A stretch of 45,600 nucleotides of DNA from a virus. Positions 1,116 through 13,271 of the stretch are shown here, piece by piece. Position numbers and translations under genes: made by a program. Location of the stretch: positions 1 through 45,600 of the IMG/VR virus record IMGVR_UViG_3300046691_000114; one strand, given 5' to 3'. A model generated the notes under the pieces. That model was not told the origin of the DNA. It saw only the letters and a list, made by a program, of their open reading frames with translations, and did not search any database. The first letter of the stretch is position 1. Each line of letters begins with the position of its first letter.

Positions 1116-3578
1116 TTAAGAAAAGAAGAACTCAGAATCCAGAACGCCGGTCAGATCGAGCGTTCCACGGCTGGGCAGCGGGTCCAGCTCTAGGCCGGGC
1201 ATCAGAAGCATACGGTCCCTGAAATCCTCCAGAACGTCATGCTTCTCGTACATCTCCACAAAGGCAGGCCTGACGCACTCTTTCAGGAACTCCCCCATCC
1301 GAGCGGCGTGAACCCCGAAACTGTCGTGGATCATGCAGAACGATGTAATGGGCCGTGGCCGGGCTAGCGCCTTCATAACCGCCATCCTGAGCAGGCAGGC
1401 GTCCATAGAGTGGATGAAGTTAGGCGCTACCGCCGTGGCTGTGTCCTGAGCTGAGAGCCGCTGTGTCGGTTCGTAGAATGTCAGGTTGACCCGGCCATCT
1501 AGGAACGTGTCCACCCGTTGCTTTTTCAGCTCAGTGGCAAAGTGCCGAACAAGGAAGCCATCCGGGGTTACCCACGTCATGGCCTTCGCACGGGCTGGCC
1601 CCGGCTGTGCGTTGGCCAGAGCGACGTATGAACGGGCTGACTTGGTTAGCCACTTCATCGCCTCCTTGGCCTTGACCACCACTTCATCAATGGCTTGCCA
1701 GATCGATTGGCTCAGCAACGTGACGTGCTGCTGATCCTCTTCCCGTGCGTCCCGATCCCATGGCGGCATTATGCCGGTGCCGAACCGTTCGTTCAGAGCC
1801 TCCCGCGTATAAGAGAGACAGCTTTGGAACGTCCCGGCGTAGGGCACGACCATAACCTGACGCTTGGTTATCTTGCGGTCGATCCCGACGCTCAGCAGGT
1901 TGCCAGCGATAGGCCTGACCTTGGCCGGTGCGTTCATGAGCTTATCAACGGCTACGTCTGCAACGTCCCGGTACAGGTCTTGACGGTCGAGGCCAGGTAC
2001 AAGGTTGACAGATCTTCCGCCGATTTCATCACGCAACATCCCGGCATAATGCTGGAGGCCTGAGCATGTCGCATCAGCCGGGCAGACGATCCGGCTTTCA
2101 AAGCCGAACCCGGTGTTGGTGAAGTCCCGCCATTCAAGGCAGGCCCGCAGAAACTGGAACGGTTCGCCAGCCTCTAGCCATCGGACATCCTTGGTAGGAT
2201 CGTTCGCGATGCTGAGCAGCATTTCCTCGTTGTCTACGGCCCAATCAGCCCGTTCCTGTAGAGACACCTTGTCATTGCCCCAAGCGTTGGCAGCAATGAT
2301 CCCGAGCCAGCAAGCGCCCTCATCGTCAACGATGGTTTCGGTACGGCTGAAATCGAGAAGGCATTTCACATAGTCAGGCCCCTGAGGATTCAGGAACGCT
2401 GCGACAGGGTAAGCCCGGCCCCGGCTGTCGAGCTGGTGACCGTAATATACGGTGTCGAAGTTCTTGAACTTCTCAGCCAGCCCCATGGTCATGAGGACAG
2501 CCTGCCGCTTGGCGATCATTTCCCGGTTAGCCGTATGGATGCGAAAGCAGACAAGGTTGTGAGCCTTGGTGACTTCCTCATCGGTACGGTAGCCCTCAGG
2601 TTCAGGGGGCAGGGGTGTAGGGTTCGCTTGTGGCAAGCCTGCGATACCGCCGCCACGTTCACGCATCGCCCATGTCAGCACCGCTAGCATGGTCTTATTG
2701 ATCCTGAACGGGGATTCCTGCAACGCGTTCACTGCCGGGACTATCTGTGACCAATCGCGGGTCAGCATCTCCTCAGCATCCTTGCGCCCGGTTCGCTTTA
2801 CGAGCGGGTATTTCTTCACGGCCTCGCTGAGGTAACCACCACGGAAAAGGTTCTCCAGCGACCACGGCTTAGGTGTCACCACCATCGGCTTGTAGAGGGT
2901 GTAATCCAGCACCCTCCGTTCCATCATGGATTGAATGTGAGCTGTGAAGTCCTCAGTAGGGTCAACGAAGTGGCTTTCCTTGTCCGCCAAGATCAGGCCG
3001 GTACTGTCCCGAAACCAGACCATGAGGGCGTAGCCGATGACCAGCTTTTCACGGGTTGACCACGTTTCCCATGACAGTTGCTCAGCGTGGAAATAGTTCT
3101 TGATGGTTCGCTTACGCCAAGCGCGGGGATAGGAACGCTTGTCAAACTGCATCATGAGTTTCTTGAGCAGGTTCCGACGTTCCTTGACGCTGGCAAAGTG
3201 TCGGATGCGCAGCTCATCATGGATGATGTCACCAATCCGAATGGACACGGTAACGCGCTTGGCCCGGTTACCCTTGCGGGTCATGACGGTGTTGAGCAGG
3301 CTCTTAAGGGTCAGATGGGCAATAACCTCAGGCTCTAGCCCGGTCTCCACCAAGGCCCGCAGTGCCCGCGTATGCGAGCCGGGCTTGCCGGGTTCATAGG
3401 AGGTCAGCTTATCGACCACCACGCGGACAAACCCATGGGTAAGGGTATGGTGGTAAATCTTGCCGGTCTTGGATTCAGTCCATTCCTCGCGCTTGATGGT
3501 CTTACGCGTATCGGCTTCCTGACGCTGCTTAGCCTCAGCCAGCATTGCGCTTTCGATACCTTCTTGAATTGCCAGCAT
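1116..3578 (-). CDS. T7-type single-subunit DNA-directed RNA polymerase
   Basis: This 820-residue protein (T7 gp1 has 883) transcribes the phage middle and late genes. Hallmarks of the family are visible: motif A with catalytic Asp about 502 in PADATCSGLQHYAGML, motif B with Lys about 572 in ITKRQVMVVPY, and motif C with Asp about 752 in CMIHDSFGV. The C-terminus ends LDSEFFFS, the equivalent of the T7 'foot' FAFA. The N-terminal promoter-contacting region is shorter and divergent, so a promoter unlike T7's is expected. I chose the ATG at 3578; the frame upstream is open but contains the terminator at 3611-3658. An ACTGTTACG element sits just before the start, which suggests repression of this gene as part of the lysis-lysogeny decision. 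Confidence 0.97.
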   Translation of the reverse strand: MLAIQEGIESAMLAEAKQRQEADTRKTIKREEWTESKTGKIYHHTLTHGFVRVVVDKLTSYEPGKPGSHTRALRALVETGLEPEVIAHLTLKSLLNTVMTRKGNRAKRVTVSIRIGDIIHDELRIRHFASVKERRNLLKKLMMQFDKRSYPRAWRKRTIKNYFHAEQLSWETWSTREKLVIGYALMVWFRDSTGLILADKESHFVDPTEDFTAHIQSMMERRVLDYTLYKPMVVTPKPWSLENLFRGGYLSEAVKKYPLVKRTGRKDAEEMLTRDWSQIVPAVNALQESPFRINKTMLAVLTWAMRERGGGIAGLPQANPTPLPPEPEGYRTDEEVTKAHNLVCFRIHTANREMIAKRQAVLMTMGLAEKFKNFDTVYYGHQLDSRGRAYPVAAFLNPQGPDYVKCLLDFSRTETIVDDEGACWLGIIAANAWGNDKVSLQERADWAVDNEEMLLSIANDPTKDVRWLEAGEPFQFLRACLEWRDFTNTGFGFESRIVCPADATCSGLQHYAGMLRDEIGGRSVNLVPGLDRQDLYRDVADVAVDKLMNAPAKVRPIAGNLLSVGIDRKITKRQVMVVPYAGTFQSCLSYTREALNERFGTGIMPPWDRDAREEDQQHVTLLSQSIWQAIDEVVVKAKEAMKWLTKSARSYVALANAQPGPARAKAMTWVTPDGFLVRHFATELKKQRVDTFLDGRVNLTFYEPTQRLSAQDTATAVAPNFIHSMDACLLRMAVMKALARPRPITSFCMIHDSFGVHAARMGEFLKECVRPAFVEMYEKHDVLEDFRDRMLLMPGLELDPLPSRGTLDLTGVLDSEFFFS

Positions 3579-3954: not shown

Positions 3955-4160
3955 TGCGAAATTCCATTGTGCGCAGCAGCGTAACGTTTACACTTCTGTT
4001 GCCCCAACAATGCCGCAAAGGACTCGCATTTGTGAATACTTATTTAAGACACTCTGAGAACATTAGGGGAACTGTTGCTGATTCGTCACGAATCGAGGTT
4101 AACGCTGCACAACCCATAGGTTGTAAAAACGTCTGTGCCGTCGCGAGCCTCGTAGGCCCA
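3955..4160. other. non-coding region with two short inverted repeats, between integration site and RNA polymerase block
   Basis: I see no convincing gene in this stretch. It contains the inverted repeats GATTCGTCACGAATC (4080-4094) and ACAACCCATAGGTTGT (4109-4124), neither followed by a T-run. It flanks the half-tRNA sequence, so the repeats could be integrase arm or accessory-protein sites. It must also hold the promoter of the 89-aa gene; I find no clear sigma-70 match. Confidence 0.45.
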
Positions 4161-4205
4161 AAGAAAAACGCCGCAAACCGCTATTTTCATAGGGTCTACG
4201 GCGTT
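4161..4205 (-). terminator. strong intrinsic terminator after integrase and attP
   Basis: The minus strand folds into a stem of about 17 bp, AACGCCGTAGACC with GGTTTGCGGCGTT plus CTAT/ATAG closed by a GAAA tetraloop. It has one bulged C and several G-U pairs and is followed by TTTTTCTTT. It insulates the integrase transcript from the RNA polymerase region. After integration it would lie immediately downstream of the truncated tRNA half at one prophage junction. Confidence 0.85.
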
Positions 4206-4227: not shown

Positions 4228-4265
4228 TTTTGCAGACCGGCGCGTAACCATTCCGCCACATGGCC
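4228..4265 (-). other. attP candidate: 5' half of a tRNA-Cys gene
   Basis: Read on the minus strand this is a tRNA-Cys from its first base to the anticodon loop: acceptor GGCCATG, D-arm TGGCGGAATGGTTACGC, anticodon 5' stem CCGGT and loop CTGCAAA. The tRNA match stops there; the 3' stem, T-arm and acceptor are missing. It lies 35 bp downstream of the integrase stop, the usual place for attP. The sequence differs from the phage's own complete tRNA-Cys (13184-13257) in acceptor and anticodon stems, so it probably copies the host gene. Integration site and crossover are inferred. Confidence 0.7.
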
Positions 4266-4299
4266 CCTTCCGAAAGGCCAAGGAATTGCAGAGGGTTAG

Positions 4300-5520
4300 C
4301 TACTTTTTCGTTACGCTTCTGTTTATGAACGCGCTGGCACTGGTGCCAACTGTTCTAGTCTTGTTCGCCTTGATGTTCACAACCTTGGGGTTGTCTGGCG
4401 GCACTGTCCCACGCTGGCGGTTACGCGTGATCGTTGCGAACCCTTCGCGCTTGTCGTCAGCGTTCAAGTGGATGTAGCGAGCCGACGTTCCGGGGTTTGT
4501 ATGGCCCAAGGTATCCATGAGCTGGATGGTTCCATACTTGGCTTTCTTCACCAGCCGGGTAGCTGTCGTATGGCGAGCGGTATAGGCGACAACGCCATCC
4601 CTCTTGCCGACACCATCCTTGCCGCCGACAGGCAGGCCCGCCGCCTCACGCGCCTTATCAAAGGCATGCCGCCAAGTGTGGTAATTGGCCAGCCCTGACC
4701 ACGGGGCCTCCCATCCGAGCGACGCGTTCTCTCTGAGGATCATTTCAACCTCATGAGACATGGGCAGGGATCGAGGGCGGTTGGTCTTGGTTTTCCGAAA
4801 CGTGACCGTCTTTTCCTCAAAGTCGCAGTCCTGCCAAGTCATATGCATGCACTCGGAGTAGCCACGGCTTGCCGTCTCGCTGAGGAAAATCCAGAACGAT
4901 TGGAACTTGCGAACCCCGGCCCCATACTTCCGAGCCGCGCGGACAACGATTCCCTCCTTGCCCTGAATGCCGGTCTGTAGCCACGTCGTCTCGGTGCGCT
5001 CAGTGGTCTCCTCAGGGAGGGCGTTGAGGATGGCGTCCTCTTGAGCCTCAGTGAGGATGTAGGAGCGCTGAGCGTAGGTGTCGCGCTTGCGCTCTATCTC
5101 AGGGACCGCAGGAATGATCCCGTTTTTCTTCGCCCGCTTCATCAGCTTGGACAAGGCGTCCAACTTGTTGGCGATGGTGTTTAGGCTGTTGCCTTTCTTC
5201 TTCCAGTGCGCGGTCAGCTTATCGACCGTGTTAACCCCCACGTCATGGATGCTAGTCGGTGCCCCAATCAGCTCAATCAATTCGTTGACGCGGTACTGAA
5301 CAGAGCTGTCCCGGCTAACATCCTCTGGCCAGCAGAGCGGGGCCAGCTTGTGGAACACCCGGCCAACGGTCTGGTGTTCGCCGTGAACTAGAACCTTCTG
5401 CTCAAAGAGCTTCGCTTGCTCCTCAGTGCGAAATTGGAAGCGTCGCCGCTTGCCGTTGTCGTCAAGGCCATCGGCTTGGAACCGCACCTTTCCTGTAGTG
5501 AGAACTCGCTTTCTGACCAT
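4300..5520 (-). CDS. int: tyrosine recombinase / phage integrase
   Basis: This 406-residue site-specific recombinase catalyses integration at the tRNA-Cys-like site just downstream. The catalytic residues visible are Arg about 219 (SRGYSE), Arg about 316 followed by His (YTARHTTATRL), His about 340 (LGHTNP) and the nucleophile Tyr about 349 (SARYIHL). Box II reads YxxR where most members have HxxR. The N-terminal 150 residues look like arm-binding and core-binding domains. The start at 5520 overlaps the stop of the small membrane gene upstream (TAATG), so I rejected the longer frame to 5598. It is the last gene of a five-gene minus-strand lysogeny transcript. No separate excisionase is recognised. 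Confidence 0.95.
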   Translation of the reverse strand: MVRKRVLTTGKVRFQADGLDDNGKRRRFQFRTEEQAKLFEQKVLVHGEHQTVGRVFHKLAPLCWPEDVSRDSSVQYRVNELIELIGAPTSIHDVGVNTVDKLTAHWKKKGNSLNTIANKLDALSKLMKRAKKNGIIPAVPEIERKRDTYAQRSYILTEAQEDAILNALPEETTERTETTWLQTGIQGKEGIVVRAARKYGAGVRKFQSFWIFLSETASRGYSECMHMTWQDCDFEEKTVTFRKTKTNRPRSLPMSHEVEMILRENASLGWEAPWSGLANYHTWRHAFDKAREAAGLPVGGKDGVGKRDGVVAYTARHTTATRLVKKAKYGTIQLMDTLGHTNPGTSARYIHLNADDKREGFATITRNRQRGTVPPDNPKVVNIKANKTRTVGTSASAFINRSVTKK

Positions 5521-5627
5521 TAGCCGGGAACTCCTGATTGGATAGAGAAATACCAGAACATTGAAGCGGCGATGGCTCCTGCAATGAAGAAGGCCCATCG
5601 GGTCGATTGCTCGTCTTTGCTAGCCAT
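5520..5627 (-). CDS. small membrane protein, 35 aa
   Basis: The ATG at 5627 is preceded by AGGGAG (AGGGAGAACA-ATG). A charged N-terminus is followed by one hydrophobic segment, WAFFIAGAIAASMFWYF, and a short tail. The stop overlaps the integrase start (TAATG). The function is unknown; it is one of several single-span microproteins in this genome. Confidence 0.65.
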   Translation of the reverse strand: MASKDEQSTRWAFFIAGAIAASMFWYFSIQSGVPG

Positions 5628-5641
5628 TGTTCTCCCTGTTG

Positions 5642-5728
5642 TTAGCGCTTGTGAAAGAAACCGATCACCGTGCCAGCGCATGCAGCGGCGAGGAAGTGAA
5701 AGAGGATGAGGCCGAACAGCGCTATCAT
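5642..5728 (-). CDS. small membrane protein, 28 aa
   Basis: An ATG at 5728 overlaps the stop of the winged-helix regulator (ATGA), and the frame ends in TAA at 5642. Almost the whole peptide is one hydrophobic span (MIALFGLILFHFLAAACAG) ending in a basic FFHKR. Start-stop coupling and the membrane pattern support a real gene despite its size. The function is unknown. Confidence 0.55.
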   Translation of the reverse strand: MIALFGLILFHFLAAACAGTVIGFFHKR

Positions 5729-6078
5729 TCGGCAGCCCCCTTGGCTTTTGCGCTGGCTTTGCTTGCCTCACGTAAGCTTTCGTAGAAGGCCTGCCCCTTA
5801 GGAGTGAGGGTCAACTCCTTGTAGCGGCGGTCATCGTAGTTTTCGACACGTTGGATGAAACCGAACCCGGCTTCACGATCATAACGACGGTCGCACCAGT
5901 AGCTCACGTTGCGGCTACAAGAAGCGTTTGAAAGTCCTAGCTCCTCCTCAATCTCTTTCTGATTGCAGCGTCCACGAGAAGCCACTGCGAGGAAAACGGC
6001 GAGGGTTGTGATGTTGATTTCTGAGGGTATTTCCGAGCGGAGAAAGTCAATAGATCGGGCCAGCGAATGCACTGACAT
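5725..6078 (-). CDS. winged-helix (MarR-like) transcriptional regulator
   Basis: This 117-residue protein has the layout of a MarR-like winged helix: an N-terminal helix, then a helix-turn-helix (about 30-65, QKEIEEELGLSNASCSRNVSYW), then a wing rich in Arg and Tyr (YDDRRYKELTLTPKGQAFY). The phrase LTxxG near the end of the wing is typical of MarR-type domains. I chose the ATG at 6078 because AAAGGA lies 9 nt upstream; a GTG at 6105 is weaker. As the gene directly ahead of the two membrane peptides and integrase, it is a good candidate for controlling integration or its own promoter. Whether it activates or represses is unknown. Confidence 0.75.
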   Translation of the reverse strand: MSVHSLARSIDFLRSEIPSEINITTLAVFLAVASRGRCNQKEIEEELGLSNASCSRNVSYWCDRRYDREAGFGFIQRVENYDDRRYKELTLTPKGQAFYESLREASKASAKAKGAAE

Positions 6079-6151
6079 ATGAGCGAGTCCTTTGCACGGT
6101 TGCACGGTTGGTCTTGGGGAGCATTTGAAGGGTCCGGTACAGGACGCATTA

Positions 6152-9488: not shown

Positions 9489-10403
9489 TTAAGCCGCAAG
9501 AGCGGCTTGTTCTTCGTCGTCGGCGGTTACCGCAGTGTGGTCAGCCATCAAGTAGTCAACAGCCTGCTGAGCCTTGCTAGCAGCGGTGAAGATGGCCCGG
9601 CTATCGCTCTTAAGGAGCTTGATCCATGAGGCAATGTAACCGGCATGCCTCAAGTCACCCTCAATCCCAAAGTGTGCGCAAGTGAAAGCCGCGCCTAGCT
9701 CAGCTACCAATTCCTCAGCGGCGTAAGCCTGATCACCAAAGCGCTTACCGAATACCCGGTCACAACGCTTCTTAGCACCAGTCCAATGCACCAGCTCATG
9801 AGCTAGCGTCGCGCTGTAACCGGCTGCATTCTTGAACGCGGCTAGCACTGGCATTTGCACCAGATCATAGCCCGGCGAATAGAATGCCTTGTTGCCACCA
9901 TGCTGAACACGGGCACCACTGCGAGCAACCCATGCGCTGAACTCAGGCGAGGGCGCATCAACAGGCGAGGGCGGTACAGGTTCCAAGTCGTCACGCTTGC
10001 CATAGTATTCAGTAGGCAAGCCGTCACACTGCGATACGTTGAACACAGTGTATTCCTTGAGCATGGGAATTTTCTTGTCCTCGCCATTGGTCTTATCTTT
10101 GACCGTGAGAGGCATATAGAAATAAATCTTGTGGCCGTGTTCGCCTTTGCGAACAGTGCCGCCAGCCATCTTTGCTTGCTGGAACGTTACATAGGCTGGC
10201 ACTTCAAAGCCGGGCAGCATGCCAAGCAACAGGATGTTGATACCCCGATACGGCTTGCGAGTTGAGGCGTTGTAAGGAAGGGCGATAGAGACACCGCCTT
10301 TGATTGAGCGTGACCACGGCTTAACCCATGGTGCGAAACCGTTCTCAAGTTCAGCGACAATCCGGTTAGTGACAGTGGCATAAAGATCGCGGCCAATGGC
10401 CAT
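9489..10403 (-). CDS. ardC: ArdC-like anti-restriction protein with zincin metallopeptidase domain
   Basis: This 304-residue protein has the two-part ArdC layout: an N-terminal ssDNA-binding domain (about 1-135, beginning DLYATVTNRIVAELENG and including PWVKPW and PYRGINILLL), and a C-terminal zincin-like domain with HELVHW (His202, Glu203, His206) and a downstream AAEELVAELG helix (Glu about 231/235) supplying the third ligand. Known ArdC proteins from plasmids protect incoming DNA from type I and II restriction. The ATG at 10403 has GGAGG 7 nt upstream. Placed in the accessory/early block, it would act soon after DNA entry. A structured non-coding segment lies directly upstream. Confidence 0.9.
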   Translation of the reverse strand: MAIGRDLYATVTNRIVAELENGFAPWVKPWSRSIKGGVSIALPYNASTRKPYRGINILLLGMLPGFEVPAYVTFQQAKMAGGTVRKGEHGHKIYFYMPLTVKDKTNGEDKKIPMLKEYTVFNVSQCDGLPTEYYGKRDDLEPVPPSPVDAPSPEFSAWVARSGARVQHGGNKAFYSPGYDLVQMPVLAAFKNAAGYSATLAHELVHWTGAKKRCDRVFGKRFGDQAYAAEELVAELGAAFTCAHFGIEGDLRHAGYIASWIKLLKSDSRAIFTAASKAQQAVDYLMADHTAVTADDEEQAALAA

Positions 10404-13127: not shown

Positions 13128-13183
13128 GGCTAGCTCCTTGTGCAAGAGCGCAAACCATACAGGAACGTTACGGTTCCCGAAAG

Positions 13184-13257
13184 TGGAGGCCGCGCCCGGA
13201 ATCGAACCGGGATGCAAGGATTTGCAGTCCTCTGCGTAACCATTCCGCCACGCGGCC
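13184..13257 (-). tRNA. tRNA-Cys (anticodon GCA)
   Basis: The 74-nt minus-strand sequence folds as a full cloverleaf: acceptor GGCCGCG/CGCGGCC with discriminator T and an encoded CCA, D-arm GCG/CGC, anticodon stem GAGGA/TCCTT with loop CTGCAAA (anticodon GCA), and T-arm CCCGG-TTCGATT-CCGGG. It sits between terL and the 91-aa gene. It shares 18 nt with the half-tRNA at the integration site but differs in acceptor and anticodon stems, so it is not a copy of the attP tRNA. It may supply Cys-tRNA if integration disrupts the host gene. Confidence 0.97.
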
Positions 13258-13271
13258 TTTTGGGAACCGGC

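Follow-up and report, generated by a model that had tools for sequence, protein, structure and literature searches.

A putative attachment site copying the 5′ half of tRNA-Cys in a T7-like soil phage and the natural lysogen of a relative

The window analysed here, i.e., the whole 45.6-kb stretch of a virus record, corresponds to a T7-like phage from soil that bears a single-subunit RNA polymerase (RNAP) and structural genes of the T7 type. Pfam matches were obtained for the RNAP (RNA_pol), the head-tail connector, the nozzle, the T7 tail, and the T7 terminase, and all of these genes are encoded on the minus strand. The RNAP gene (1116–3578, minus strand) is situated downstream of a 40-nt segment (4228–4267, minus strand) considered here as the core of the attachment site (attP). 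Directly upstream of this core lies a tyrosine integrase gene (int, Phage_integrase; 4300–5598, minus strand) with motifs of the R-HxxR-H-Y type (ASRG, HTTATR, LGHTN, and RYIH), whose stop codon is found 34 nt before the core, and int adjoins the RNAP gene. The integrase gene is in turn directly preceded by a gene for a MarR-like regulator (5725–6105, minus strand; phrog_9665, with a weak MarR_2 match below the Pfam cut-off), and the same order of MarR-like gene and int was observed in L053, P-SSP7, and other integrase-bearing T7-like phages. Between the core and the RNAP gene, a terminator-like inverted repeat (AACGCCG...CGGCGTT followed by T5; 4162–4205, minus strand, arms at 4193–4205 and 4167–4179) begins 22 nt past the core; its loop is long, and it therefore escapes short-loop scans. 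Downstream of the core, nearly all of the phages compared have a hairpin and T-run resembling a terminator, at a distance of 29–42 nt in most cyanophages, about 56–59 nt in the soil clade, and 109 nt in L053. Candidate integrase arm-type sites are located on the int side (TTACGCTTCTGTT; 4311–4323, plus strand) and on the RNAP side (3974–4000, with the inverted copy CAGCAGCGTAACG and the direct copy TTACACTTCTGTT), although these repeats are short, occur in two copies, and may be due to chance. The early region also contains a gene for an ArdC-like antirestriction protein with a zincin-like metallopeptidase domain (9489–10403).

On the minus strand, positions 4265–4228 read GGCCATGTGGCGGAATGGTTACGCGCCGGTCTGCAAAA, and the tRNA-Cys gene on each of nine genome contigs begins with exactly these 38 nt. 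The contigs are titled Bradyrhizobiaceae, Tardiphaga, or Bradyrhizobium (including Bradyrhizobium sp. NFR13), with one exception, a Hyphomicrobiales MAG. The earlier note on this DNA had proposed that attP copies the 5′ half of a tRNA-Cys gene and that a gene matching 4228–4265 should be sought in alphaproteobacterial genomes; our search led to Tardiphaga-type Bradyrhizobiaceae. The match is exact over these 38 nt, but it includes two further G residues upstream, so that the identity block truly starts at 4267 and spans 40 nt. A pattern made of the first 37 nt retrieved only nine stretches among 84,980 species genomes, which excludes a chance match, and all nine represent the 5′ half of tRNA-Cys, the contig of L005 stopping inside the gene. 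The 40-nt identity is bounded on both sides, the adjacent base differing in 7/7 host loci compared, and it extends one base beyond the CTGCAAA anticodon loop, where the host continues as ...CTGCAAAACCG and the phage as ...CTGCAAAAGCT. Directly downstream of int, the window thus shares 38 nt (plus two) with the start of a host tRNA gene, the identity covering the 5′ half only, unlike the standard type of attP, which carries the 3′ part of the tRNA. Judged from the sequence, these features support 4228–4267 as the putative attP of the window phage, with the 5′ half of tRNA-Cys as its identity block.

A single tRNA-Cys match (≤3 mismatches) was obtained in the candidate host genomes (eight searched), except in the Tardiphaga MAG BWSM_99, whose two matches (L005 and L008) lie at overlapping contig ends. 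With a looser anticodon/T-arm pattern, one real tRNA-Cys was identified in each of five candidate host genomes, in line with the single gene that the earlier note regarded as frequent in bacteria; neither of the circumstances that it had named as speaking against its proposal, several tRNA-Cys genes or integration at another locus, was encountered for the likely hosts. Family-wide, 49 of the 391 genomes match at ≤2 mismatches, and only two of them show two matches, both partly at contig ends. In BWSM_99, the assembly breaks at tRNA-Cys and the two contigs overlap by about 112 nt, a pattern expected if some cells of the population had an element integrated at this gene.

Close relatives of the window integrase were not found in IMG/VR. 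When searching for further half genes, a degenerate half-tRNA-Cys pattern matched 19 viral contigs, from which the prophage L084 and the contigs L175, L178, L179, L180, L187, and L189 were set aside. In the 12 T7-like phage contigs kept (13 with the window), phage DNA continues beyond the tRNA-Cys 5′ half; int lies upstream of this half and the RNAP gene downstream wherever the contig extends far enough. L175, L178, and L189 hold whole tRNA-Cys genes and do not resemble T7-like attPs. The integrases form separate lineages, namely L053, L174, L181, L183, L185, and a group composed of L176, L177, L182, L184, L186, and L190, which are 23–73% identical to each other. The soil-clade integrase also matched ordinary prophages of the 3′ kind at tRNA-Cys (L207, L210, and L211). 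L185 (around 13268) and L177 (around 4786) encode integrases that are 72% identical and differ in their int ends and upstream flanks, while the sequence downstream of the core is the same, so int modules appear to have been exchanged at or near the att core. Two bacterial genomes, L213 (reverse complement, 2641–2729) and L052 (reverse complement, 2089–2176), bear int, a complete tRNA-Leu(TAA) in the same direction, and an extra tRNA-Leu-like 3′ fragment, and are possible further cases of 5′-side integration; among bacterial integrases, the int of one of the two is closest to that of the window.

An integrated relative, L084/L165 (IMGVR_UViG_2516653010_000002, 45,810 bp), was found by an RNAP profile search, its RNAP being 64% identical to that of the window. 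At one end, the record comprises bacterial DNA, a host-type promoter (TTGCCT...TATATG), and the tRNA-Cys 5′ half GGCCACGTGGCGGAGTGGTTACGCAACGGTCTGCAAAA, followed by phage DNA and the RNAP gene. The half gene is broken after CTGCAAAA, the same break point as in relatives of the same integrase clade. The other end carries the MarR-like gene, int (38% identical to that of the window and 59% to that of L053), and terL (81%), and the record stops precisely with the int stop codon; owing to this trimming, it does not reach the junction on the int side, where the rebuilt tRNA is expected. L084 is a natural lysogen, and its stranded promoter and 5′ half are the remnant expected of a 5′-half integration, as the earlier proposal predicts. 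A rebuilt tRNA-Cys would be placed beside the L084 int, just outside the record. The geometry of the 5′-half attP, the single host gene, and the prophage junction together imply that the DNA upstream of the rebuilt gene must come from the phage. The prophage junctions that had been anticipated were thus located in a relative but not for the window phage itself, since among the 391 Bradyrhizobiaceae-family genomes the window integrase gave a single weak match, at tRNA-Leu, and no lysogen of this phage was detected. The flank of L084 indicates the nearest genus of the prophage host through an 80% identical gene, and the prophage was absent from 16/16 genomes of that genus searched. In this prophage, a tRNA-Asn is located beyond the RNAP gene (L166, 16816–16890).

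Host tRNA-Cys genes are preceded by TTGCCT-N15/17-TAACTA, TATATT, or similar sequences that end 11–15 nt before the gene. A comparable phage block, TTGCNN-N17-TACAG[G/C], ends 12–13 nt before the gene in L174, L176, L177, L181–L184, L186, L188, and L190, and the corresponding blocks read TTGCTC-N17-TATCAC in L053 and TTGACG-N15-TAGAGA in L185. Overall, a promoter-like block ends 9–13 nt before the core in 6/7 integrase lineages that could be read, scoring p 0.000–0.022 against all positions of the same contigs (six lineages); given the shared descent of the main clade, these amount to about six observations rather than twelve. The host promoter in L084/L173, used as a positive control, scored in the same test. 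Among the Prochlorococcus phages, P-SSP7, P-SSP2/P-SSP3, and SS120-1 show an exact TATAAT 20–47 nt before their tRNA-Leu half (p 0.001–0.022), whereas Synechococcus cyanophages fail the same promoter test. The window is the exception among the lineages: no promoter-like block precedes its core (p 0.84–0.93 within the genome), and a rebuilt gene would therefore rely on read-through or on a weak upstream site. A candidate for the latter is TTGGCA-N18-TAAACA (4320–4349, minus strand), inside the 3′ end of int and 53 nt before the core, with a score of the kind that occurs about once per kb, close to chance. A perfect, operator-like palindrome (TGGCAC-CA-GTGCCA, 4335–4348), also in the 3′ end of int, overlaps the candidate −35. 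The earlier note had considered a loss of expression of the rebuilt gene; expression need not be lost, because a promoter-like block directly precedes the core in most relatives.

The separate intact tRNA-Cys with CCA described earlier was confirmed by both ARAGORN, for which it is the sole tRNA called in the window, and Rfam (62 bits); it carries a GCA anticodon, encodes the CCA end, and occupies 13184–13257 on the minus strand. It had been called divergent, which is correct for its sequence (59/74 positions identical to the host gene) but not for its direction, given that it and the core share the minus strand. Compared with the att core, it shows 7 mismatches in 38 nt, and owing to this divergence from both host gene and core it is not a copy of attB and is an unlikely integrase target. 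The gene is located in the late region, 14 nt behind terL, and is immediately bracketed by an 8-bp inverted repeat read from the sequence (CGGTTCCC/GGGAACCG; 13171–13269, minus strand), which may be a processing stem or an insertion trace. Upstream of it lies CTGGCC-N17-CTATGA, with a shuffle p of 0.015 with one matrix and 0.07 with a second. Other viral contigs did not contain this tRNA-Cys sequence. As for the relatives, no tRNA was found in four near-complete genomes (46–47 kb), tRNA-Pro in one (G406, the genome of L183), and tRNA-Asn in the prophage; an own tRNA-Cys was absent from all relatives examined. Within the set, the window thus stands alone on two counts: it lacks a promoter block close to the core, and it carries a tRNA-Cys of its own.

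Taken together, we consider it very probable that the window represents a temperate T7-like (Autographiviridae-type) phage with a 5′-half attP, whose integration would leave the rebuilt host tRNA-Cys dependent on phage DNA. In the mechanism proposed, the tyrosine integrase would recombine attP and the 5′ half of the only host tRNA-Cys gene, the crossover probably taking place in the anticodon loop. The host promoter and its own 5′ half would be stranded next to the phage RNAP gene, while the phage 5′ half and the host 3′ half would rebuild a whole tRNA-Cys behind int, to be expressed from phage-side DNA. The terminator would shield the RNAP gene from the stranded host tRNA promoter in the lysogen and separate int from the RNAP gene in the free phage. 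In most relatives, the phage flank would supply a promoter-like block spaced like the host promoter; in the window phage, the rebuilt gene would be transcribed by read-through of the MarR-int operon or from the weak site at 4349–4320, possibly with help from the phage tRNA-Cys.

The role of that phage tRNA-Cys may be more ordinary. One or two tRNAs are common in T7-like phages, and there is about an even chance that this one simply serves the lytic cycle, the rebuilt gene being adequately transcribed by MarR-int read-through. Relatives bear tRNA-Pro or tRNA-Asn instead, a candidate promoter lies 53 nt before the core, and LUZ100 transcripts cross int up to the terminator behind it, the position that the rebuilt tRNA would take in a lysogen (PMC10134795). 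However, read-through requires int to be transcribed in the lysogen, and it would be a coincidence for the phage to carry precisely the tRNA that it targets. A second question concerns the block before the core of the relatives, which could instead combine a conserved stretch coding for the integrase C terminus with a site bound by the integrase. The main soil clade has its −35 within the final int codons (VVA) and its −10 beyond the stop; TTGC belongs to the codons for the int tail VVAFKK, and the sequence GCTTTC-AA-GAAAGC forms a palindrome. Because the −35 overlaps conserved int codons, part of the main-clade conservation may indeed be coding, and the promoter calls are consensus matches rather than proof of activity. 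Nevertheless, TACAG follows the stop codon, the 17-nt spacing is kept even in L183, where the int stop is displaced, L053 and L185 have different sequences that still score as promoters, and the distance from block to gene start agrees with that of the host promoter, making a purely coding and binding role somewhat unlikely. Returning to the phage tRNA-Cys, a lysogen with a promoterless attP flank might underexpress the rebuilt gene and be compensated by the tRNA at 13184–13257 expressed from the prophage. The coincidence of both peculiarities in the window, the promoter match upstream of the phage tRNA with the first matrix, and a tRNA core too diverged to be targeted by the integrase would fit this proposal, yet n = 1, the upstream site is not significant with the second matrix, and a gene that follows terL by 14 nt, within the late region, is expected to be silent in a lysogen. 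A spare-tRNA backup thus fits the comparison, but, coming from one phage, it is suggestive and no more; as a complete account we regard it as unlikely, and a role in lytic growth explains the presence of the phage tRNA-Cys as plausibly as backup of lost expression does. Finally, the 5′ half might be what decay has left of a tRNA acquired by imprecise excision, and not a working attP; LUZ100 and pelagiphages have tRNA-Leu genes near int for which such an origin has been suggested (PMC10134795). For the window, this reading is highly improbable considering the exact 38–40 nt identity to the host, the break after CTGCAAAA common to relatives of the same integrase clade, and the related prophage junction at exactly that point.

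Integration at the 5′ half is not exceptional as had been supposed, since this geometry is known from T7-like cyanophages, whose attP is the first half of tRNA-Leu and whose integration is proven (PMC8776855), and from archaeal pTN3-like elements (PMC8371274). The order of MarR-like regulator, int, 5′-half core, terminator, and RNAP gene is shared with cyanophages P-SSP7, S-TIP37, and their relatives, and the logic is identical, their core being about 39 nt long and ending in the anticodon region. In contrast, these phages target tRNA-Leu instead of tRNA-Cys, and their int-core gap is 83–120 nt compared with 34 nt in the window. Transient integration without stable lysogeny has been reported for the cyanophages, whereas the relative of the window phage sits as a prophage. 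The archaeal elements follow the same 5′-half rule and express the rebuilt tRNA from the integrase promoter, so that it depends on element-borne transcription, and bacterial cases were called rare (PMC8371274); their integrases are, however, suicidal, the gene itself being split, while the window int would stay whole. LUZ100, Agrobacterium phage Pasto, and temperate pelagiphages also have a MarR-like regulator and int next to the RNAP gene, and a terminator immediately behind int stops transcription of the MarR-int operon in LUZ100 (PMC10134795). A 5′-half attP downstream of int was not recognised in HTVC119P, CRP-113, CRP-118, or Pasto. Standard tRNA-targeting prophages, with the 3′ part at attP, likewise use a tyrosine integrase and leave the tRNA whole after insertion, as proposed here, but in them the host promoter still drives the rebuilt gene, whereas in the window system this promoter would be lost to it. 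In the literature covered, which included few subscription papers, we found no description of a tRNA-Cys target, of a T7-like lysogen with such a junction, or of a promoter, half-tRNA, and terminator cassette. Apparently new are therefore the tRNA-Cys target, the natural T7-like lysogen, and the cassette composed of int, promoter-like block, 5′ half, terminator, and RNAP gene.

The published cyanophage geometry limits the importance of the present case in this respect. As a tentative generalization, which we put forward as a conjecture with a minority chance of being correct, 5′-half attPs of T7-like phages could be promoter-donating cassettes, made up of promoter, 5′ half, and terminator, that are idle in the free phage and take over expression of an essential single-copy host tRNA upon integration; phages that lost the promoter, among them the window phage, would need their own copy of that tRNA for lysogeny. 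If true, the only tRNA-Cys of the lysogen would be under phage transcriptional control, and how much of an essential tRNA the cell has would depend on the state of the prophage. Loss of the phage flanking DNA could then be costly to the cell, amounting to a possible built-in addiction, and a testable general rule would follow, i.e., that an element integrating at a 5′ half must supply either a promoter or a spare tRNA.
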